The position numbers were made by a program, and so were the translations under genes. A stretch of DNA of 64,000 bases, taken from NCBI GenBank assembly GCA_007695145.1, contig REEI01000080.1:48718-112717 (forward strand), given 5' to 3'. Below the pieces are notes generated by a model. It was given only the letters and a program-made list of their open reading frames with translations. It did no database searches and was not told the origin of the DNA. This DNA comes from Saprospirales bacterium. Its GTDB lineage: Bacteria > Bacteroidota > Bacteroidia > Chitinophagales > Saprospiraceae. This document shows positions 19,995 to 37,463 of this stretch, piece after piece; the stretch's first letter is position 1; each line of letters begins with the position of its first letter.

Positions 19995-20033
19995 CCGTCC
20001 GATTTTTCTTAATCAATATTTAACTGGTTGACA

Positions 20034-23000
20034 ATGTTTAGACTTTTTACAATTTTTTTAATGTTTACCTTTCTTGCGGTCAATGTCTTACAGTCCCAAT
20101 CTTACGATACTCCCTGTGAGGCAAATGACAATCCGACTAATTTCGGGACCGGAGAAAGTTCAGTAAATCTGAATGGAAACATCGAAGAGGTGACCCCCTT
20201 TATTACCGATCTTTCCGGAGCCAACGTTCAAAATTTTGGAATCACTGACGCAGATAGTGCGCTTTTCTACAAATTAAATCTCGATGCTCAGACCTCTTTT
20301 TTGAGAATCAGCTGGGAGGGCGGCACTGTCCCCGAATTATGGGTGGGTCTTATAGGGTTTGAAGAACTCTGTCCTGCTGCTACTGAATACGGCGAATTTG
20401 TCTACCAGAATTTGGATGACGAAGAATTGCTTTCAGACGACATTCAGGGCGGGGAAGTGATCTTTGAACTCTGCCGTTTGGATGTGGATGAAGGTGATTT
20501 TGACAATCTGTTTTTGTGGGTGGCCAGTTCAGAAGCCGGCACCTTCCAAATAGAGGTTACTCAGCACATCCGGCCGGTTAACGACGGCTGTGAATCCACT
20601 CCCATAAACCTTGGGACTTTGCAACACGGAGATGACCTGGAAGAAGACTTCAGTAATGTCTGGGCCTGTCGTCAGAATTTTCAACCGGGATCAGCTGCTT
20701 GTGCACTCGAATTTAACGATGGAGCTGCAGTTTGGTTTGAGTTTACTACGGGCACTGAAGTGGGCGAGATCAATGTGTTGATCGAAAATCCCGATGAAGT
20801 ACCGGTGGATGTTGCTATTATAGAAAATGAGTCCGGCGATTGCGAGAGTTTTACCCTCGCGAGACGCGGCTGCGAGAATGGTGAGGACGATGAGGAGATA
20901 TTATTGGAACACATAGCTGTAAAGCCCAATACTACCTACTTGATTATTGTAAATACCGACCCAGAAGACTGGAGTGAGAATTTCACCATCACCGTATCAG
21001 CCTGCGATCCACCGGATAATAACCTAATTTGTGATGCAACTGCTCTTAATTTTCCCTCTCTTGGAGACTACAATCCCGACAATGCCATTAACTTTCCGGG
21101 TGGAATAGGTTCAGTGGTGGAGGGAACTACAGAATGTGCTTACGCTTTCTACAACAATGATCCCACTGCTGAAAACTCGTGGATTGACTTCAATTGCGGT
21201 CATGCAGAGGTTGAGAGAGCTGTATTCTATAAGTTGAATGTGGATGATTACGCGACTAAACTCTATGTTGAATTTGAAAATTCCAATCTGGCAGGGAATC
21301 TGGCCGTGCAGGTATTTTTGGTTCAGGCGCTGCCTGGTGATTGTAGTGATTTAATTTTTGATGAGGGTTTGTTCGTGCCACCTGCTGAATGGGGTAGTTG
21401 CAACTTTTCAGGTGGTGATGTACTGGAGATCGATCTTTGTGAAGTCGATAATGAAGACTATGGGAACCTCTATCTGTGGGTGGCCTCTGCAATTGACGAT
21501 GAGGGGGAGTTTGAATTGAGTTTTAGGCAAGAGATTGCTCCTTACAATGACCTCTGTGAAGACGAGACCAGTGGAGATCGCGGTGCCGGCGATTTTGGGA
21601 CAGTTAATTGGAACTTTCAGAATTGTTTTGATGGTGAAACTACAAGAGGAGCATGTCCTATTCCCGGTTCATTCGTGGGACTGCCAGCATGCTTTGACTT
21701 CTTTGAGGATAATCCCACAGTATGGTATGAATTCACTACCGGGTCCAATGTTGAAGCAGTAGATATAGAAATAAATTTTCCAGGAGTAGATTTTTCTGTT
21801 GCTATATTTCAATTAGATGAGCCCTGTGGAACTCAACTTACTGCTCCCGGAGACTGGGAGGATTACTGTTCACAGGAAAGCGGATCAGTTGAGTTCGAGC
21901 AACTGCGAGTTAAGTCCAATACTACCTATTATATATTGGTGAGCACCTCTGAAGACGATTGGGGTGAGTTTGATATTTGTTTGGAGGTGTGTGAAGCCCC
22001 GGAAAACTACAGTATTTGCGAGGCAGAGCAGGTGGATTTTCCCGCTCCCGGCTACAATCCTAACAACCCTGCAGCAAGTACATCCGGAACCACTGAGTGC
22101 GCATATGGATTTTGGAACGATGCAGAATTAACAGATCTCATTGAGTTTGATTGTGGAGACGAGTACGAGCATGCAGTTTTATACAAGTTGAATATTAATG
22201 AGTTTGCTTCGAAGATTGAGATAGTCATTGATCCAGGAACAGCTGGGACTATGTCAGCACATGTGTTTTTCTGGGAAGGCAATGAAGATTGTGACGACAG
22301 AGGTTTTGACATTATAAACTTCGTAAATCTTGAACTAGGGGTATGTGATTTTACAGGTGAAACCAGCATAGAAATTGATTTTTGTCCACTTTGGGCAGAT
22401 CCAATCTGGGGAGATTTTGAGTTTCATGAATATATGTACTTGTGGGTGGCTACCGATTTGGAGAATCAGGGTAATTTCAACATAGATATCTTTCAGGAGA
22501 TTGCACCCTATAATGACGATTGTGAAGATGCAGGAAACAGAGGGCCAGGAGACCTGGGGACTATAGAGGTTGGCGATGAGGTATGTGAGTTGATGGAGAC
22601 CACCAGAGGAGCCTGTCCAATATTGTATAGTGGACCCAGCGCTTGCCTTGAGGGATTTCCAGAGGAGGACCAGGCAGGTGTTTGGTTTAGATTTGAGACT
22701 GGAGAGAATGTTGAACTTTTGACAATAGAGGTGGATCATTCCAATAATGGCCCGGTGCGAATGGCGATGTTTGAGCTTCCCGACGGATGCGGAGAAACTG
22801 GCTTTTTCCCTCCTAATCAGGATGTTGAAGAATATTGTGTGGAAGCAACCAATGGAGTGGATAGTATATGGAATATACTTGTTCAGGAAAACACTGAATA
22901 TTTTATTTTGGTCAGCACTCCTATTGACGATTGGGGCGACTTCAGTATTTGTGTGCGCAATTGTGAACCACCTGAAAATGATCGTCTCTGTGACGTATTC

Positions 23001-26000
23001 GAATCCAGCAATTCTGAAATTTGGGTTTATCCTGGAGAGGAAAGTATTGATAACGGTGTTTATAACCGAAATGAGCTTGAGCTGGAGGGAACAACCCGCT
23101 GCGCAAGTAATTTCTTCCTGGATTTTGATCTGAACTTCGAAGATTTTGGTTGTGGGCCAGATTTTGAAAGCGCTGTCTTTTACCATATACGGGCAAATCC
23201 TAATGCAACAGAAATAACTGTTACGGGAAGGGCTCTTGGGGACCTAAATACCCTTGCCTTTGGATTCTTTTCAATAGGGGAGGAAGCTTGTGACGGAGAC
23301 CGAAACTTCATGCCTGAAATATGGTTAGACCCGGAATTCGATGAAATGATCGATTGTAATGCTGCTTTTGATGGAGAAATAGTCTTTGATTTATGCGGTC
23401 TCACCGATGAAGAAAAGGAAAACATTTTCCTCTGGGTAGCGACCCCTCGTTTTGAACAAGGAGACTTTGAGATAGAACTCAGCCAGAAAATTGGTCCTGT
23501 AAATGACGATTGTGAAGAGCCTTATGATTTTGGAGTCATTGAAAGTGATGAGGACGAAATCATTTGCTTAGAGGAAATCAATGCTCCAAGCACCAACTTA
23601 TGGGGTTGTGCAGAGACCTATGACCCCTCTCTTGTCGACAATGAGTTGCAGTATGAATTTGAGTGTTTTGAAGATCCCATAGAGCCCAATATATCAGGTG
23701 TTTGGTATCGATTTGAAACAGATGATGAAGCCGGTCGTCTGGATATGGATTTCTTCCACTACAGCGAGGGAGATGAAGTTAGGTTTGTATTGTTTACTCC
23801 TGATCCTGATGCAGGGGAGGAGTGTGAGGCATGGGTAATTATTATGTGTGAAGAGACCGAGGATGGAGAGATTTTCTTCGAGAATGAGGCCATAGAACCC
23901 AATACGGTCTATTACATGCTTTTCTACTCGGACAAGGAAATTGCAGATGATTTTGATCTATGCATCAATGTAAAGCCACCAAGAGAGTGCCTGGGTATTG
24001 CACCTTATTATTACAACCATACAGAGATTATTTGTGGGTTGAGTCAACTAGAAGGTTTTTGTTTATTTATGGGACCCCCGTTTCCACCTTCTTTTATCAA
24101 TTGGCCGGGATGTAATCCTCCTTTTGGAGTTGCCTTTCACAATCCGCAGTGGTTTACCTTCGTGGCAGGAGAGGCCAATCAATTGAGTATTGACGTAGAA
24201 ATTACCGAGTGTATTGGACAGGGAGTTCAGATTGCCATGTACGAATTAGACTGCAATGTAGAGTTTGATCCCTCTGAACAATCGCCGGGTATTCAACCGA
24301 CTGCTGATATGCTGGTCTCTGACTGTATACTTACAGCCACTCCTCAAATAGGGATTGTTAACTTTACGGTGAATAATGTGGTACCCGGGACTGTTTATGG
24401 AATTGTTGTTGATGGATGGGCCAATGCGGTATGCAAGGTCGAGGTATTGAATGTGTTAGTGGGAGGTGATCCACCACAAATTGATGACGACCTGCTTGGT
24501 GAGCCTGAGTTTGACAATGAAGGATATGGGTTCCAACCAGGAGATACCATTTGTGCAGGGGCAACAGATGTTTTATTTGCTCTGGCTCAGGAAGTAGAGG
24601 GAGCTTGTACCTATCGTTGGACCTTGAATGGTGAAGAATTAACAGATTTAGATGACCCTCTTGCCATTACACTTGACTTTCCGGATCCCGGAGTTTATGA
24701 GGTTTGCGTATCAGCTACCAATTTGTGTGAGTTTACTGCGCCTAAGTGTATTGAAGTGGTAGTAGCCCCGCTCGATCCCGACATTCAATTTGACACCATC
24801 TGTAGAAGGCAGGATTATTTATGGGAAGAGGATGTGTTTGGCATCATTGATCTGCTGGGTCCTTTTGATGACTCCGGCGATTATGAGTTTGAAGATCTTA
24901 TTATAAGTCCAACCGGTTGCCAAATTGAGGCCTTTTTGAACTTGCATGTCATTCCCGATAATTTTGATAACCCAACAGAATTATTTGAAGTGATTTGCTG
25001 GGACGACCCAGATCCAGTTTATGTGCCTTTTGAAGATCACCCTCAGGCTCAGTTTTTTAATTTCACCGGAATATACGGTGAGGACAGAGATCTTTTTATC
25101 ACTCAAGAGGGTTCTCCAGGGAATGAATTTGAGTGTGACAGCTTTTTCATCTTAGAGCTCGTTAATTTGGATATTTTATTCTTCTTTGATGAGCCATTCT
25201 GTCTCGATAGCCTTATTTATATAGGCGGTAGTGATTTCGTATTCCCGGGAGGACTGGAGGATTTTGGATATGATGCCGAAATCGAGATATACTATGAACT
25301 AATTAGAGAGAGCGATGACTCCATTATTATCTCAGGAACCAGTATCGGGCTGACCGATTTATTTGGAGGGATTTTTGTCGAACTTCCGGTTTCAGAGTTT
25401 TTTGGAGAGGTTCAGGTGTTCCGTGTCGATTTTTACCTACAGTATCAGGGACTACCCGAAGAGCCTTGTGCGAGAAGTTTTTCTATTGAGGTCGATCCGG
25501 CAGAATTTGTTCCTCCGGTACCTGAAGTGGATGCGCCAGATATTGCCTGTATTGGCGATGAAGTTGAACTGGAGGTAACCAATCATCGCTTCATTCCTGA
25601 CGAAACTTATGTTTGGTCTTTTAGCCAGCAACCAGATACCATTATCGGTGATCCAGAGGGTCATCAACTGACTGCAGTGTTTAGTGAAGCAGGAATCGTT
25701 GAAATTTGTGTTAATTCTACCAATCGCTGTGCAGATAGCGATCCTCATTGTTTTGAAATCGACATTAATGAGCCACCAGTAACCGATGCCGGTCCCGATG
25801 GCATTTCTTGCTCCTTTGAGCATACCTTTGAAGGAGGTGGTGATGACGGATTTTGGACCATGGTTTCAAGCCCCGTAGGAGCGACTGCAACCTTTGCTGA
25901 CAATAATGATCCACAGACTACAGTGACGGTTTCACTTAAGGGGAGTTACCAGTTTATGTGGACCGAAGTCATTGGTGATTTGGTCGGTTGTAGAGGCAGA

Positions 26001-29000
26001 GACACCATGAGTGTTCAGTTTCTCGAAATACCGGAACTATTGAATTTATCATATGAATGCGATTCGTTGGGACTTGAATATGTAGCTACTTTTGAAATCT
26101 TAGGTGAAACAGGTCCTTTTATTGTAATTAATGTGGCAACAGGAGAGGAATTCGGAACGGTTGACAGCAACATATTCACTTCTCCACCAATTCCAGATCT
26201 TCAAGCGGTAGAGGTGGCAATTATAGATGGAAACGGATGTGAATCTGAAGTGATACTGCTCAGAGAAAGGTGTGATTGTCCCACAGCAGTAGGTCAGTTG
26301 GAACCAACTGCATTAAACTTGTGTGATGGTGAGTGCATAGAGACGTTGGATTTTTATGACGATGCTACCCAGGTGTTTGTGCCGGGCCAGGATACGGTTT
26401 TGTTTTTCCTTCAAACTACCAACTCTTTTTCTGTTAATGAAGATGATTGGATTGATGTAAATAATCATGGGGTATTTTGCAATGAAGATTTGGATGTGGA
26501 TATTGGAACCACCTATTATGTGTATGTAGCAGTTGGACCCATAGATACGCTGACGGGATTTATCCAATTGTTTGAAGACCCCAATGATATTGATAATTGT
26601 ACAAGAACTGCTCGTAAGCCGGTAACATGGAGAGGGCAACCTGAAGCAATGGCTCTGCCTGACACCATTTGTGGGGAAGTGCTGCCGGCCTTGACCGCTA
26701 TCACGTCTATAGGTGCCGGTTCATGGTCGCAGGTGAGCGGCCCCGGAGAATTGACCTTTGATAATGTAGCCGATCCCAATAGTGGAGTTGAGGCAGATCT
26801 CTGTGGCACCTATACCATTCAATGGCGCGAACAGAACTTCCAGTGTGTTGATTCAATTCAGGTGGATATACAGCTAAATTGCATTCCCCAATTGGGTAAT
26901 GTTGATTTCCAGTGTGACAATGAGGATATTTCTTATTTCCTTCAATTCCAAATAGTTTCAGGAACTGCTCCATTTACGCTGGTAGAGCCTGAAGAATATG
27001 CTGATTTTCTGGATGGAAATGTTTTCACGCATCCTGAAATGCCAAACAGCGGTGAAGAATTGGACATCTTTTTCTTTGTGGATGCCAATGGCTGTGAACT
27101 GGAGGTTGTAATCGATGTAAATTGCGACTGTCAGCCATTTCCGGGTATAATGGATGATGAGCAAATCAATGTATGTATCACTCAGACCCAGGTGACAGCC
27201 GGGCCATTTCAGGAAGATCCCGAAGGGGAACCCGGAGATATAGGAACTTACGTTCTACACACCCTTCCCGGAGATCAGTTGGGAACCATCTTGGGGATCA
27301 ACGATAATGGGGTGTTTAACTTTAATGCTGCCGAAGGTATGGTTTGTGGAACCATCTATTATATCTCTTATGTAGTGGGCCCTCCGGATAATGATGGCAA
27401 TGTTGATTTCGAAAATGGTTGCACCAGAGTTGCCCCCGGTCAACCGGTTCTGTGGTATTGTGAGCCCACTGCCGATGCAGGAGATGATGTGACCGTTTGT
27501 GGTTCTGATCTTGCGCAATTAAATGGTAGTTCTACCTTTGGTACAGGCCAGTGGAGTGGAGGCGCCGGAACTCTGACTGATCCTGACAATCCGAATACGA
27601 CTTACCTACCGGATGATTCTGAATTTGCCGGTACTGTGACGCTTACTTACACCACATTTGCCGACGATGGAATTTGTCCGAACGTTTCAGACCAGATGGT
27701 GATAACAGTAGAACGGCCACGAGTGGCTGACGCCGGCCCTGATCAGGTGTTCTGTGAGATTGAAGATGTGCAGTTGAATGCTGATTCAGAAGGTGTATCC
27801 GGTATGTGGTCAGGGGGTGCAGGATCCTTTAATGACCCCAATCTGAACAATGCAGTATATACACCGGATGCATCAGAGCAGGGAACAACTATCACATTGA
27901 CCTGGACCACAGATGCCGGAAATGAATGTCCCGCGGTAAGTGATGAGATGACTATTCAGATTGTAGATGAATTGGTATCGGATCCGGGTGAAGATCGAAT
28001 TGCTTGCTTCCTGTCAACCCAATTGGAGGCATCACTTCCCGGTAATCTCAACGGGCAGTGGTCTGGTGATGCAGGAGTTTCATTCAGCGATGTCAATGAT
28101 CCCAATGCGGTTGTAACGGTACCTTCACTTGGCACCTTCTGCTTTGAGTGGACGATTTCCATAGGAGATTGTGAAGATACCGAACAGGTGTGCATCACCT
28201 TTGTGGATGCACCTGAAGCGACCTGGGAACTTGAATGTAATGACATAGCAACAGAGTATAGAGTGATCTTTACCATTTCAGGTGGCGATCAGTCCACTTA
28301 TACGGTGAATGGAACCACAGTAGGTGGTGGTGTTGAATTTGTCTCAGATTGGATAACATCAGGAGATCAAGTTACTTTCACCATTGACGATGCCAATGGT
28401 TGTGATCCCTTTGTAGTTCAGATAGAACACGAGTGCGATTGCCTCACCGAAGTGGGCGAAATGTCCGATGAAGATGCTGTTACTCTATGTGAGGATCAAT
28501 CATTTGATTTCAGTGTTTTCTATGATTCCAGCACTGAATTTCTGGATCCAAACGATATTCGTGTATACCTGCTACACGATGGAAGTGTCACCGATGTTGG
28601 AAACATTATTTCACAAAACACTTCAGGTCAGTTTGGATTCCAGGCTGGAATGAATCTGGAACAAAGCTACTTTGTAACAGTAGCCGTTGGTGATGAACTT
28701 GGCTCTACCGGTACGATTGATTTCAGTGATGCTTGTTTACTATACTCTACCGGAGTTGAGGTAATTTGGTACGGATATCCCGATCCGGGCATTGAACTGC
28801 CGGCTATCCTCACCTGCGCTGTTACGGAAGTTACCATAACCGCAGTCACGCCGGATGCTGATCACATATCTTATCAATGGAGTGGTCCTGGAATTGTATC
28901 CGGGCAAAATGAAAGAACCGTAACAGTTGGAGCTGTCGGAACTTACACTTTGATAATTACAGATACTCGTGCAGGTTGTGAATCTACCGAATCCGTTGTT

Positions 29001-30317
29001 GTGACTGGTGATTTTGAAGAGCCTGATGTAATTATTGAGGTACCTGATGTACTTACTTGTGCAGTAACTGAAGTCACCGTTGATGGAAGTGGGTCAAGTA
29101 CCGGAAATATGACGTATGAGTGGACCGGGCCCGGAATAGTTTCAGGAGCTAGTACCAACACTATTGTTGTTTCCGAAATCGGAAATTATACTTTGACAGT
29201 AATTGACAATGAAAACGGATGTTCAGCTTCTGCTTCTATGTTGGTAGAGGAGGATGTTGACTTCCCTGCAGCCAATGCTTCAGTTGATGCAGAGCTGGAT
29301 TGCAGTACCGATCAGGTAACGCTTTCAGGAGCCGGAAGCAGTCAGGGTGCTGACTTTGTTTACAGTTGGTCTGTGGTGCCCGGCACCGGAGGAAATCTGG
29401 TAGGGGCAACAGATGGTCAAAACGCCACTGCTAATCAGGCAGGATTATATGTCATAGAAGTATTAAACACTGGGAATGAATGTCGCTCCACTGACACCGT
29501 GGAAGTAATATTGATCGATGATGTAGTTACGGATTTTGCTCTCGAAATAGATGGTATAAATTGCTTTGGTGACAGAGATGGTATTATCACTATTGCTGAA
29601 GTAATAGGTGGCACCGCCCCCTATGCCTACTCTTTTGATGGCGGAGCTACATTTGGGACCAATAATCAAGTGACCGGATTATCACCAGGGACATATACCA
29701 TTGTAGTGAGAGATGATAGGGGTTGTCTGCACAATCAAACGGTTACTCTTGTCGAGCCCCCATTGCTTGAGGTGGACTTGGGTCCAACAATAGTAGTTAC
29801 TCAAGGTGAATCTGCTGTTTTGGTGGCTACAGTTAATGTGGACGAGGAGAGCATAGTTGAGTGGAACTGGGATCCCTTATTGGATGCAACTTGTCCCAAT
29901 TGTCCGGAACAGGTCTTTACTCCGGAGCGTGAAACCTTTGTTCAAATCGAAGTAGTGGATTCGTCCGGCTGTGTAGCTAACGCAAGTGTTCAAGTTCTGG
30001 TTAGGGTTATCAGAGAGGTTTACATACCCAATGCCTTTAGTCCCAACATAGATGGAATCAATGATTTTATTGGTGTTTACTTTGATCCTCAAAGGATTAA
30101 TGAAATTAAGGAATTCAGAATCTTTGACCGCTGGGGCGAACAGGTGTTCATGCGTGAAAATATTCCGGTGTATACGGAATTGAATGAAACCAATGCCTGG
30201 GATGGAAACTTCAATGGAGAGCCCATGCAGCCTGGTATATTTATCTACCATATTGTGATTGAGTTTGCCGACGGCGTTGAGGAAACCTTCCAGGGTGACT
30301 TTATGCTGATCCGGTAA
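20034..30317 (+). CDS. Giant T9SS-secreted repeat protein (3427 aa) with CHU_C-type C-terminal sorting domain
   Basis: Secreted or cell-surface protein. MFRLFTIFLMFTFLAVNVLQSQS is a signal peptide; ATG 20034 is preferred over the TTG at 20028. Four tandem modules of about 300-335 aa begin near residues 24, 326, 654 and 978, each with VFYKLN, LWVA...GxFEL, (A/G)PxNDxCE, VWxxF(E/T)TG, NTxYxxLVST and a closing C-x-PPEN; a shorter fifth unit starts near 1314. PKD-like domains follow (about 1476-1585 and 1830-1913), three units opening with CDC (about 2081, 2365, 2802), DAGPD-type Ig-like domains (about 2480-2720), three more Ig-like repeats (about 2917-3163) and one SprB repeat (about 3165-3244). 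The last 100 residues, starting YIPNAFSPNIDGINDF and ending DFMLIR, are the gliding-type T9SS tail. It is very rich in Asp, Glu and Cys. An adhesin or surface-filament role is inferred. Confidence 0.9.
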   Translation: MFRLFTIFLMFTFLAVNVLQSQSYDTPCEANDNPTNFGTGESSVNLNGNIEEVTPFITDLSGANVQNFGITDADSALFYKLNLDAQTSFLRISWEGGTVPELWVGLIGFEELCPAATEYGEFVYQNLDDEELLSDDIQGGEVIFELCRLDVDEGDFDNLFLWVASSEAGTFQIEVTQHIRPVNDGCESTPINLGTLQHGDDLEEDFSNVWACRQNFQPGSAACALEFNDGAAVWFEFTTGTEVGEINVLIENPDEVPVDVAIIENESGDCESFTLARRGCENGEDDEEILLEHIAVKPNTTYLIIVNTDPEDWSENFTITVSACDPPDNNLICDATALNFPSLGDYNPDNAINFPGGIGSVVEGTTECAYAFYNNDPTAENSWIDFNCGHAEVERAVFYKLNVDDYATKLYVEFENSNLAGNLAVQVFLVQALPGDCSDLIFDEGLFVPPAEWGSCNFSGGDVLEIDLCEVDNEDYGNLYLWVASAIDDEGEFELSFRQEIAPYNDLCEDETSGDRGAGDFGTVNWNFQNCFDGETTRGACPIPGSFVGLPACFDFFEDNPTVWYEFTTGSNVEAVDIEINFPGVDFSVAIFQLDEPCGTQLTAPGDWEDYCSQESGSVEFEQLRVKSNTTYYILVSTSEDDWGEFDICLEVCEAPENYSICEAEQVDFPAPGYNPNNPAASTSGTTECAYGFWNDAELTDLIEFDCGDEYEHAVLYKLNINEFASKIEIVIDPGTAGTMSAHVFFWEGNEDCDDRGFDIINFVNLELGVCDFTGETSIEIDFCPLWADPIWGDFEFHEYMYLWVATDLENQGNFNIDIFQEIAPYNDDCEDAGNRGPGDLGTIEVGDEVCELMETTRGACPILYSGPSACLEGFPEEDQAGVWFRFETGENVELLTIEVDHSNNGPVRMAMFELPDGCGETGFFPPNQDVEEYCVEATNGVDSIWNILVQENTEYFILVSTPIDDWGDFSICVRNCEPPENDRLCDVFESSNSEIWVYPGEESIDNGVYNRNELELEGTTRCASNFFLDFDLNFEDFGCGPDFESAVFYHIRANPNATEITVTGRALGDLNTLAFGFFSIGEEACDGDRNFMPEIWLDPEFDEMIDCNAAFDGEIVFDLCGLTDEEKENIFLWVATPRFEQGDFEIELSQKIGPVNDDCEEPYDFGVIESDEDEIICLEEINAPSTNLWGCAETYDPSLVDNELQYEFECFEDPIEPNISGVWYRFETDDEAGRLDMDFFHYSEGDEVRFVLFTPDPDAGEECEAWVIIMCEETEDGEIFFENEAIEPNTVYYMLFYSDKEIADDFDLCINVKPPRECLGIAPYYYNHTEIICGLSQLEGFCLFMGPPFPPSFINWPGCNPPFGVAFHNPQWFTFVAGEANQLSIDVEITECIGQGVQIAMYELDCNVEFDPSEQSPGIQPTADMLVSDCILTATPQIGIVNFTVNNVVPGTVYGIVVDGWANAVCKVEVLNVLVGGDPPQIDDDLLGEPEFDNEGYGFQPGDTICAGATDVLFALAQEVEGACTYRWTLNGEELTDLDDPLAITLDFPDPGVYEVCVSATNLCEFTAPKCIEVVVAPLDPDIQFDTICRRQDYLWEEDVFGIIDLLGPFDDSGDYEFEDLIISPTGCQIEAFLNLHVIPDNFDNPTELFEVICWDDPDPVYVPFEDHPQAQFFNFTGIYGEDRDLFITQEGSPGNEFECDSFFILELVNLDILFFFDEPFCLDSLIYIGGSDFVFPGGLEDFGYDAEIEIYYELIRESDDSIIISGTSIGLTDLFGGIFVELPVSEFFGEVQVFRVDFYLQYQGLPEEPCARSFSIEVDPAEFVPPVPEVDAPDIACIGDEVELEVTNHRFIPDETYVWSFSQQPDTIIGDPEGHQLTAVFSEAGIVEICVNSTNRCADSDPHCFEIDINEPPVTDAGPDGISCSFEHTFEGGGDDGFWTMVSSPVGATATFADNNDPQTTVTVSLKGSYQFMWTEVIGDLVGCRGRDTMSVQFLEIPELLNLSYECDSLGLEYVATFEILGETGPFIVINVATGEEFGTVDSNIFTSPPIPDLQAVEVAIIDGNGCESEVILLRERCDCPTAVGQLEPTALNLCDGECIETLDFYDDATQVFVPGQDTVLFFLQTTNSFSVNEDDWIDVNNHGVFCNEDLDVDIGTTYYVYVAVGPIDTLTGFIQLFEDPNDIDNCTRTARKPVTWRGQPEAMALPDTICGEVLPALTAITSIGAGSWSQVSGPGELTFDNVADPNSGVEADLCGTYTIQWREQNFQCVDSIQVDIQLNCIPQLGNVDFQCDNEDISYFLQFQIVSGTAPFTLVEPEEYADFLDGNVFTHPEMPNSGEELDIFFFVDANGCELEVVIDVNCDCQPFPGIMDDEQINVCITQTQVTAGPFQEDPEGEPGDIGTYVLHTLPGDQLGTILGINDNGVFNFNAAEGMVCGTIYYISYVVGPPDNDGNVDFENGCTRVAPGQPVLWYCEPTADAGDDVTVCGSDLAQLNGSSTFGTGQWSGGAGTLTDPDNPNTTYLPDDSEFAGTVTLTYTTFADDGICPNVSDQMVITVERPRVADAGPDQVFCEIEDVQLNADSEGVSGMWSGGAGSFNDPNLNNAVYTPDASEQGTTITLTWTTDAGNECPAVSDEMTIQIVDELVSDPGEDRIACFLSTQLEASLPGNLNGQWSGDAGVSFSDVNDPNAVVTVPSLGTFCFEWTISIGDCEDTEQVCITFVDAPEATWELECNDIATEYRVIFTISGGDQSTYTVNGTTVGGGVEFVSDWITSGDQVTFTIDDANGCDPFVVQIEHECDCLTEVGEMSDEDAVTLCEDQSFDFSVFYDSSTEFLDPNDIRVYLLHDGSVTDVGNIISQNTSGQFGFQAGMNLEQSYFVTVAVGDELGSTGTIDFSDACLLYSTGVEVIWYGYPDPGIELPAILTCAVTEVTITAVTPDADHISYQWSGPGIVSGQNERTVTVGAVGTYTLIITDTRAGCESTESVVVTGDFEEPDVIIEVPDVLTCAVTEVTVDGSGSSTGNMTYEWTGPGIVSGASTNTIVVSEIGNYTLTVIDNENGCSASASMLVEEDVDFPAANASVDAELDCSTDQVTLSGAGSSQGADFVYSWSVVPGTGGNLVGATDGQNATANQAGLYVIEVLNTGNECRSTDTVEVILIDDVVTDFALEIDGINCFGDRDGIITIAEVIGGTAPYAYSFDGGATFGTNNQVTGLSPGTYTIVVRDDRGCLHNQTVTLVEPPLLEVDLGPTIVVTQGESAVLVATVNVDEESIVEWNWDPLLDATCPNCPEQVFTPERETFVQIEVVDSSGCVANASVQVLVRVIREVYIPNAFSPNIDGINDFIGVYFDPQRINEIKEFRIFDRWGEQVFMRENIPVYTELNETNAWDGNFNGEPMQPGIFIYHIVIEFADGVEETFQGDFMLIR

Positions 30318-35638: not shown

Positions 35639-36019
35639 TCAAGATCCATATCCTTTGGGTGGTCCTTTATAGGGTATATTCTCATCGAGTTGAATAGCCT
35701 CTTGGAGAACCAGGTCTAACTTTTCAAAAGGGATCTTTTGGGTATCCATAATTCGTATGCCTGCTACCATTTTTCTTCCTTTTGAGTCCAATATTCCATC
35801 CATATTTTCGAACTCTTTTGCTCTGAGAAAAACCAGTTCTACCCCCTTTCCTCTTTTGGGGTTGAGGTAACAGACCCAGGATTTTCTGTAAAAAAATGGG
35901 ATGGAGTATCTCAGCTTGGCTGTCATCTGTGGATAGGTGAGTATCCACTCTGTTAGCGACCTCATTATTAGACCCTCTGTGCCGCCATATTCTTCTATAT
36001 ATAGATCTACTTCATTCAT
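35639..36019 (-). CDS. DUF1801 (YdhG-like) protein
   Basis: Small soluble protein of 126 aa. The DUF1801 pattern is visible in LTEWILTYPQMTAKLRYSIP and FFYRKSWVCYLNPKRGKGVELVF; members share the fold of the Bacillus frataxin-like YdhG proteins, but their role is not settled. The ATG overlaps the dinB stop in ATGAATGA (8-nt overlap), so it is translated from the dinB message. This coupling suggests expression under DNA-damage control; that is inference. Confidence 0.75.
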   Translation of the reverse strand: MNEVDLYIEEYGGTEGLIMRSLTEWILTYPQMTAKLRYSIPFFYRKSWVCYLNPKRGKGVELVFLRAKEFENMDGILDSKGRKMVAGIRIMDTQKIPFEKLDLVLQEAIQLDENIPYKGPPKGYGS

Positions 36020-37178
36020 ATTGATTCATTTGTGTTGGCATCCAGGAGGCCCTTTGCAGGAGTTTTCGCCCAAATTTAGTTCGAATTTCATCCATTTTTT
36101 GGAGGAGTGCTATTTCTTTTGGATGATCTTCAAAAAGGCTCAGCTGTTGATTTCCCTGAACAAGGCCTGAAAATCGCAGACCGATAAGTCTTATGAGTTG
36201 CCTTCGAGTGTACAATTGATCGAAAAGTTCTCTTGCAATGGATGCCAGCCTTTTATCAGATGCTGTCAGAGAGATTTTTTTCTGACGGGTAAAGGTGTTG
36301 AAGTCGGCATACCGTATTTTGACGGTAAGGCAGGATGTCATTTTGCCGGATTGGCGAAGGTCGTAGGCCAGATCGCCGGCCATTGAAGAGAGTAGACTGT
36401 GGATGTGGGTGATGTCTAGAGTGTCTCGTTCAAAAGTGCGCTCGGAGGATATAGATTTTTTTTCAGAATAGGGTTCCACCGGGCTGTGGTCAATCCCATT
36501 GGCCTTTTCCCAGAGTTTTTGACCGTTTTTGCCAAACTCCGACCGGAGCAGAGCGGGCGGTATTTGGCTGAGTGTTTCTATTTTTCTCACTCCCATAAAG
36601 CTCAGCCTGGTAGCTGTTTTGTCCCCTATACCGGGCAATTTTTTAATTGGCAGTGGATTGAGAAAAGATTTTTCACCGCCACTTTCGATTTGTATGCTAC
36701 CGTTCGGTTTTGCCTCTCCCGTCCCTACTTTTGATACCAACTTGTTTACCGCAAGGCCAAATGAGATGGGCAGACCCGTTTCCCGAATAACTTTATCCCT
36801 GAGTTGCTTTCCCCACAAATAACACCCAAAGTAGCGATCCAGTCCACTGAGATCCAGATAAAACTCATCTATGGAAGCTTTTTCGTAAAGTGGCGCCTCC
36901 TCCCTGATTATTTGGCTTACCACAGTGGAGTAATTCGTGTAGGATTCCATGTCTCCCCTTATAAAAATTGCATCCGGACACAAATAGCGAGCCATCTTAA
37001 TGGGCATGGCCGAATGAACCCCAAACTTTCTAGCCTCATAGCTGCAGGAGGCAACTACCCCTCTGTTGCTTCCGCCTCCTATTATAAGAGGCTTTTCCAT
37101 GAAGGCACTGTTTTTCAGCCGCTCTACAGACACAAAAAATGAGTCCAGGTCCATATGAATGATTGCCCTATTAAACAT
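36012..37178 (-). CDS. dinB: DNA polymerase IV (Y-family translesion polymerase)
   Basis: Error-prone polymerase that copies past damaged bases. The catalytic carboxylates are in MDLDSFFVSVE (residues 9-19) and KASIDEFYLDLSGLD. GLAVNKLVSKVGTGEAKPNG and LPIKKLPGIGDKTATRLSFMG are the palm and helix-hairpin-helix segments; the little-finger domain follows. The C-terminus lacks an obvious beta-clamp QLxLF motif at the very end, but QQLSLFED is present about 38 residues before it. ATG 37178 (MFNRAIIH) is preferred to the track start at 37199, because the latter would lie within the palindrome over the predicted transcription start. Length 388 aa. Confidence 0.93.
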   Translation of the reverse strand: MFNRAIIHMDLDSFFVSVERLKNSAFMEKPLIIGGGSNRGVVASCSYEARKFGVHSAMPIKMARYLCPDAIFIRGDMESYTNYSTVVSQIIREEAPLYEKASIDEFYLDLSGLDRYFGCYLWGKQLRDKVIRETGLPISFGLAVNKLVSKVGTGEAKPNGSIQIESGGEKSFLNPLPIKKLPGIGDKTATRLSFMGVRKIETLSQIPPALLRSEFGKNGQKLWEKANGIDHSPVEPYSEKKSISSERTFERDTLDITHIHSLLSSMAGDLAYDLRQSGKMTSCLTVKIRYADFNTFTRQKKISLTASDKRLASIARELFDQLYTRRQLIRLIGLRFSGLVQGNQQLSLFEDHPKEIALLQKMDEIRTKFGRKLLQRASWMPTQMNQYE

Positions 37179-37181
37179 AAA

Positions 37182-37204
37182 TGTTGTTTTAAACAACAAA
37201 AGTA
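37182..37204 (-). promoter_or_regulatory. dinB promoter with 17-nt palindrome over the start site
   Basis: Plus-strand CAAAAGTA at 37197-37204 reads TACTTTTG on the gene strand, an exact -7 match. TGTTGTTT-T-AAACAACA at 37182-37198 is a perfect inverted repeat with 8-bp arms and one central base, placed where transcription should begin and overlapping the -7 element by two bases. A repressor bound there would block transcription. The repressor is unknown; a LexA-like or XRE-type protein is a guess. Confidence 0.6.
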
Positions 37205-37463
37205 TGATTAATAATACAACAATTAAAAAACAGAATAGTATTTTTTCAAAAAATCATGGGCGAAACCCAGAGAGTACGGAGACCACTTTTGCCAAAATGA
37301 CCAAAAGCAAGAATGCTTAGGGAGATTCTCTTAATAATGCGCTGGAAAAATGATGAATAATCAGTAGATAGCCAATTGATTGGATTTCACCCATCCTATG
37401 TGTAGTTGAGTGAATGGCTCGCTCTCACGATTTTGGAAAAAGCTGGCATCACGATTTGTGCAA

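Follow-up and report, generated by a model that had tools for sequence, protein, structure and literature searches.

The DNA studied here carries a perfect palindrome in the promoter region of dinB, the gene for DNA polymerase IV, and the question raised by this locus is whether the palindrome is a repressor operator and, if so, which protein it serves. The window, by which we mean the whole 64,000-nucleotide stretch that was analysed, contains dinB on the minus strand (36012–37178; 388 aa; Pfam IMS and IMS_C, NCBIfam DNA polymerase IV), and no other Y-family polymerase was found in the genome. A gene matching Pfam DUF1801 (35639–36019, minus strand) shares 8 nt with the 3′ end of dinB, and the two are presumably co-transcribed; the related dinB loci fetched showed no DUF1801 gene as a neighbour, so that the coupling looks species-specific. 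Elsewhere in the window (20028–30317), 10 kb are taken up by a single open reading frame of 3429 aa.

Two candidate operators at the dinB promoter

The palindrome, TGTTGTTTTAAACAACA, occupies positions 37182–37198 and consists of two 8-nt arms separated by one central base; on the dinB (minus) strand it reads TGTTGT-TTAAA-ACAACA, ends 3 nt upstream of the ATG (37178–37176), and constitutes the start-proximal 17-bp candidate operator, O1. It has two bases in common with TACTTTTG (37197–37204, minus strand), read directly from the sequence and assigned as the −7 element on the basis of TAnnTTTG, which we take to be the Bacteroidota −7 consensus. Both the perfect palindrome upstream of dinB and its overlap with a −7 element had been reported in the first-pass annotation, and both are present; of the extent reported there, 37182–37204, the start holds, but the palindrome itself ends at 37198, and 37204 takes in the remainder of TACTTTTG.

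Taken alone, the palindrome is barely above chance and only mildly non-random. No other odd palindrome in the window has arms of 8 nt or more; a second-order Markov model expects about 1.07 per 64 kb, and dinucleotide shuffling gives p ~0.01 for a palindrome in the 90 nt upstream of dinB; since about one per window is expected by chance, TGTTGTTTTAAACAACA by itself proves little. The exact sequence was found once in the 3.7-Mb genome, a 99% complete assembly placed in Saprospiraceae by its nearest named relatives, and its one-mismatch dyad variants, searched genome-wide, all lie inside genes in a number equal to the control, so that the exact or near-exact palindrome was rejected as a regulon marker.

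Upstream of O1, at a distance of 23 bp centre to centre, lies a second, imperfect 17-bp candidate operator, O2 (37205–37221, minus strand; TGTTGT-ATTAT-TAATCA), and the 6-bp spacer between the two is exactly the first six bases of TACTTTTG. When scored with a matrix that had no training sequences from the genus, O1 (5.3) and O2 (4.9) are the best and second-best sites of the dinB upstream region, and together they rank first of 191,886 position and spacing combinations in the window. The position and spacing of O2 are identical in all five same-genus relatives whose dinB is intact, and the arrangement in which the final TG of TAnnTTTG opens O1 is likewise the same in relatives of the genus. 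Without mismatch, the half-site pair TGTTGT-N17-TGTTGT is unique in the genome to dinB; with one mismatch allowed, the counts equal the control, and this search was discarded. Among the remaining one-mismatch matches, only a dnaE promoter was worth following, and its box pair is located elsewhere in that promoter; this lead was partly luck, and the real test is provided by the dnaE promoters of relatives. The earlier proposal of a repressor operator at the dinB promoter is accordingly kept in substance, an operator of the SOS type being very probable, and amended in form, in that O1 is not a single operator but one of a pair spaced by 23 bp.

A family box and a conserved spacing

A palindromic expectation-maximisation motif search, run once on dinB promoters and once on lexA promoters from Saprospiraceae of genera other than the window's, arrived in both sets at one 17-bp box, TGNCGAATAATTCGNCA (TGNCGA-N5-TCGNCA), with log-likelihoods of 91.5 for the dinB promoters (25–31 when shuffled) and 116.6 for the lexA promoters (26–34 when shuffled). 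The window palindrome agrees with this box in its length and its centre; in each half T1, G2, and G5 are retained, and C4 and A6 have both become T. The start-proximal dinB box of the genus is TGACGA-N5-AGGTCA in G007, TGATCA-N5-AGGTCT in G006, TGTTTG-N5-AGAACA in G002, G003, and G004, and TGTTGT-N5-ACAACA in the window, always at the same place, with its first TG forming the end of the −7 element. The outer pairs covary among these relatives (G-C kept, T-A to A-T, T-A to C-G), and such joint change of paired positions is as expected for what would be a dimer site. Family-matrix scores are much lower in the window's genus (5.3) than in other genera (typically 10–20), so that position, spacing, and register count for as much as the letters in linking it to the family box; the genus box is probably a drift product of the 17-bp Saprospiraceae box.

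A search across relatives for the exact TGACGA-N5-TCGTCA returned few matches, with GC-rich centres, and was useless for defining a regulon; palindrome strength, also tried as a discriminator, did not differ between genomes with and without the repressor considered below, because perfect symmetry is lacking in the family boxes. Enrichment of GAC/GTC words in dinB promoters is confined to genomes in which the repressor gene is present (Mann–Whitney p 1.6e-4), and the box signal follows genomes encoding a CI-like XRE–S24 repressor. In some dinB promoters from repressor-bearing genomes, L042, L043, L045, L047, and L061 among them, no box was found within the scanned 90 nt.

Under the family matrix, the two top-scoring sites of a promoter are separated by 21–23 bp in 27 of 32 cases (against a null mean of 2.7 and a null maximum of 10 in 500) and, after similarity filtering, in 16 of 19; these promoters were the training set for the box letters, the training imposing no spacing. 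In the held-out genus, 23-bp pairs occur upstream of dinB in all six genomes (individual p 0.005–0.02), three of the six promoters being from close relatives and hence not independent, and 22–23-bp pairs occur upstream of the accessory dnaE in five of five (individual p 0.01–0.08, combined 8.6e-5). Control promoters gave no group signal, neither those from genomes without the repressor (combined p 0.15) nor those with dnaE inside an operon (0.81). The SOS-type operator first suggested for this locus was the right kind of idea. A second site at 20–23 bp is also found in 7 of 10 lexA promoters of the CTAA type, a small sample that suggests the pair geometry to be older than the box letters. By a slight balance of judgement, we favour the wider proposal that, across Saprospiraceae and perhaps Bacteroidota, a phage-derived LexA acts, like lambda CI, through operators paired at about 23 bp, with the geometry conserved, the letters drifting quickly (TGNCGA, TGATCA, TGTTTG, and TGTTGT in one family), and the dinB and dnaE boxes of each genome remaining in step.

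The candidate repressor and its probable regulon

An XRE–S24 repressor gene divergently adjoins dinB in several related genomes; its ortholog in the window's genome, L118, is located on another contig and is 67% identical to that of a same-genus genome. Loss of the LexA ortholog from this genome was considered and rejected, the S24 Pfam search having missed L118 and a protein search having found it. L118 contains HTH_3 (PF01381, 7e-14) and Peptidase_S24 (PF00717, 3e-9) domains, and Ala105–Gly106, Ser142, and Lys181, the cleavage site and Ser–Lys dyad, are invariant in nine orthologs. Sanchez-Osuna et al. (NAR 2021, PMC8565304) showed that proteins with an XRE/CI-like HTH and S24 are the Bacteroidetes SOS repressors, 'non-canonical LexA', and bind CTAA-N5-TTAG or GGA-N5-TCC; relatives of this repressor group shift such boxes in gels, and the targets are mitomycin-inducible. 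The opinion that SOS boxes of Bacteroidota are poorly known thus overlooked these published motifs, of which the window box is a diverged variant. Many order-level orthologs carry an exact CTAA-N5-TTAG in their own promoters; it is present in none of the Saprospiraceae lexA ortholog promoters, and the letters of both published boxes are absent from the lexA promoters of the family and from the window dinB promoter. Diverged boxes with the same dyad–spacer structure, for example TTAC-N5-GTAA, are documented within the group (PMC8565304), so that box letters cannot decide membership. One residue of the recognition helix is Asp in most Saprospiraceae, Gly in the window's genus, and Ala in the CTAA group; its correspondence with the box change is loose, and it was set aside as evidence. 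With good confidence, L118 is predicted to be the non-canonical LexA that regulates the dinB pair. In some relatives, a second XRE–S24 type lies divergently beside dinB (L031, L035, L036, and L097), and the shared region of L031 contains a GGA-N5-TCC box (TATGGAATTATTCCATA), as in the published Flavobacteriaceae group.

The window's genome also encodes a separate S24 type, the 275-aa paralog L079, which has an Ala–Gly pair and a GDSM serine motif and could in principle own the operator as a DNA-damage switch for dinB. This assignment is very unlikely, since Pfam reveals no HTH in L079, and many genomes have its type and yet no box in the dinB promoter, the box following the other S24 type. The L079 promoter is strongly conserved in the genus, but in another pattern (ATATATG...TTTACAGTAATATG) with no TG-N13-CA pair, suggesting that this paralog may have its own, different operator. 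Striking genus-wide conservation with the same pattern was observed in the upstream regions L079, L093, L089, L087, L086, and L090.

Returning to L118, we hold it to be highly probable that O1 is half of a tandem SOS operator, O2–(−7 element)–O1, at which this non-canonical LexA represses dinB and the DUF1801 gene. From the features observed directly, namely the sites, their pairing, conservation, and covariation, the repressor gene, and its catalytic residues, we infer repressor binding, repression, RecA-dependent cleavage, and induction. In the predicted mechanism, two L118 dimers would bind the two 17-bp boxes, 23 bp apart and flanking the −7 element, and would exclude RNA polymerase from the dinB promoter, an occlusion suggested by the promoter anatomy. 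When DNA is damaged, RecA filaments would cause L118 to be cleaved at its Ala–Gly bond, and the cleaved repressor would permit transcription of dinB and the DUF1801 gene. The two dimers may act cooperatively, as their spacing suggests by analogy with lambda.

Probable further targets of L118 are the accessory dnaE and, under weaker control, the L118 gene itself. The accessory DnaE gene (L221/L251; G000:C136, ATG at 36709, minus strand) encodes a 976-aa member of the DNA polymerase III alpha superfamily, a second DnaE of 1182 aa also being present, and carries the pair TGATTAAAAAATAAACA / TGTTTATAATAACAACA at −72 and −49, 23 bp apart. In several other genera it is the apparent operon partner of dinB, and in the window's genus it is separate from dinB. 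The dinB and dnaE boxes are of the TGATCA/TGATTA type in G006 and of the TGTTGT/TGTTTA type in the window's genome; being alike within each genome, their letters appear to drift in step. The promoter of the genome's own lexA contains TGTTGTTTTACACATTG, an imperfect site with the half-site TGTTGTTTTA plus ACA that matches O1 at 13 of 17 positions (p 0.003 to 0.034, depending on the null model); that promoter has no significant 23-bp pair (p 0.23), and pairs at p 0.005–0.05 are found in four of seven genus members. No boxes were found in the recA region of the window, whose pair score is far below that of dinB, in agreement with the first-pass observation that the motif is lacking upstream of recA. 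A recA without boxes is atypical for a full SOS regulon; regulon contraction has been described in PMC8565304, and the small regulon predicted here is in line with it.

With a 23-bp pair upstream of the accessory dnaE both in the window's genome and in relatives, the earlier suggestion of a regulator specific to dinB and the DUF1801 gene is probably wrong. A related reading, that the site belongs to an unrelated local repressor (e.g., of the TetR, MarR, or Fur-like type) acting on dinB–DUF1801, can appeal to the uniqueness of the exact sequence in the genome and to the species-specific DUF1801 neighbour, and the perfect 17-nt palindrome TTGTTTATTATAAACAA found ~48 nt upstream of dinB (L020) in G015, a genome without the LexA ortholog, means that other regulators may use similar sites. 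We nevertheless give such a repressor very little weight: the position, length, and 23-bp pairing are shared with same-genus relatives and dnaE promoters and are continuous with the family box, and the list of open reading frames between 33 and 42 kb of the window shows no obvious regulator gene beside dinB. Occurrence of the motif only here had been taken to speak against damage control; the exact sequence is indeed unique, but uniqueness is the wrong test, because the genomes of the genus have their own diverged boxes and keep length, register, and spacing. It is extremely improbable that the palindrome reflects chance, as the roughly one such palindrome expected per 64 kb might allow, or is a structural element of the 5′ transcript end without a regulatory protein: O1 coincides with the single position at which boxes occur in relatives, has a partner 23 bp upstream, and shows covarying outer pairs among relatives.

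Comparison with known systems

The L118-dependent arrangement proposed here resembles the non-canonical LexA system in the domain architecture of L118, in its Ala–Gly and Ser–Lys residues, and in having dinB and an associated DNA polymerase III alpha gene as predicted targets; like the published boxes, the window palindrome has a 5-bp centre, and boxes stand upstream of error-prone polymerase genes, here at dinB and, as a pair, at the accessory dnaE. In contrast to those boxes, the dyad is TGTTGT here and TGNCGA in other Saprospiraceae, the symmetry extends over 17 bp, and the pairing is strict at 21–23 bp, whereas the main text of PMC8565304 notes only that several promoters contain at least two instances. 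That main text makes no mention of Saprospiraceae; our literature search found no paper on SOS control in this family, and no description of this box variant or of its strict pairing was found in the literature searched. The class of system is known, the box variant is new, and its paired layout is newly noticed. The Bacteroidetes SOS system would thereby be extended to Saprospiraceae with a box that the published motifs would miss, paired operators around the −7 element would be a candidate mechanism, and a single genus would offer a fine-grained case of repressor–operator co-drift, in which exact-box genome searching fails, the conserved elements being length, register, and 23-bp spacing.

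With the canonical LexA of Escherichia coli (CTGT-N8-ACAG), the predicted system has in common its role and the S24 cleavage chemistry; the box differs. The canonical winged-helix domain LexA_DNA_bind (PF01726) has no match in the window's genome (G000), control genomes being positive. A 221-aa frame in an order-level relative (G049:C145:9075–9632) has adjacent LexA_DNA_bind and S24 matches; this canonical LexA-like frame, in a phylum said to lack such proteins, could be due to horizontal transfer or to a contaminating contig.

In phage lambda, CI is a RecA-cleavable repressor, and its operators OR1, OR2, and OR3 are 17 bp long, overlap promoters, and are separated by 6–7-bp spacers (23–24 bp centre to centre). 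O1 and O2 are like these operators in their 17-bp length, 6-bp spacer, promoter overlap, and predicted CI-type repressor. Unlike the lambda operators, the dinB pair would serve a chromosomal DNA-repair target, and no third site is in evidence there.
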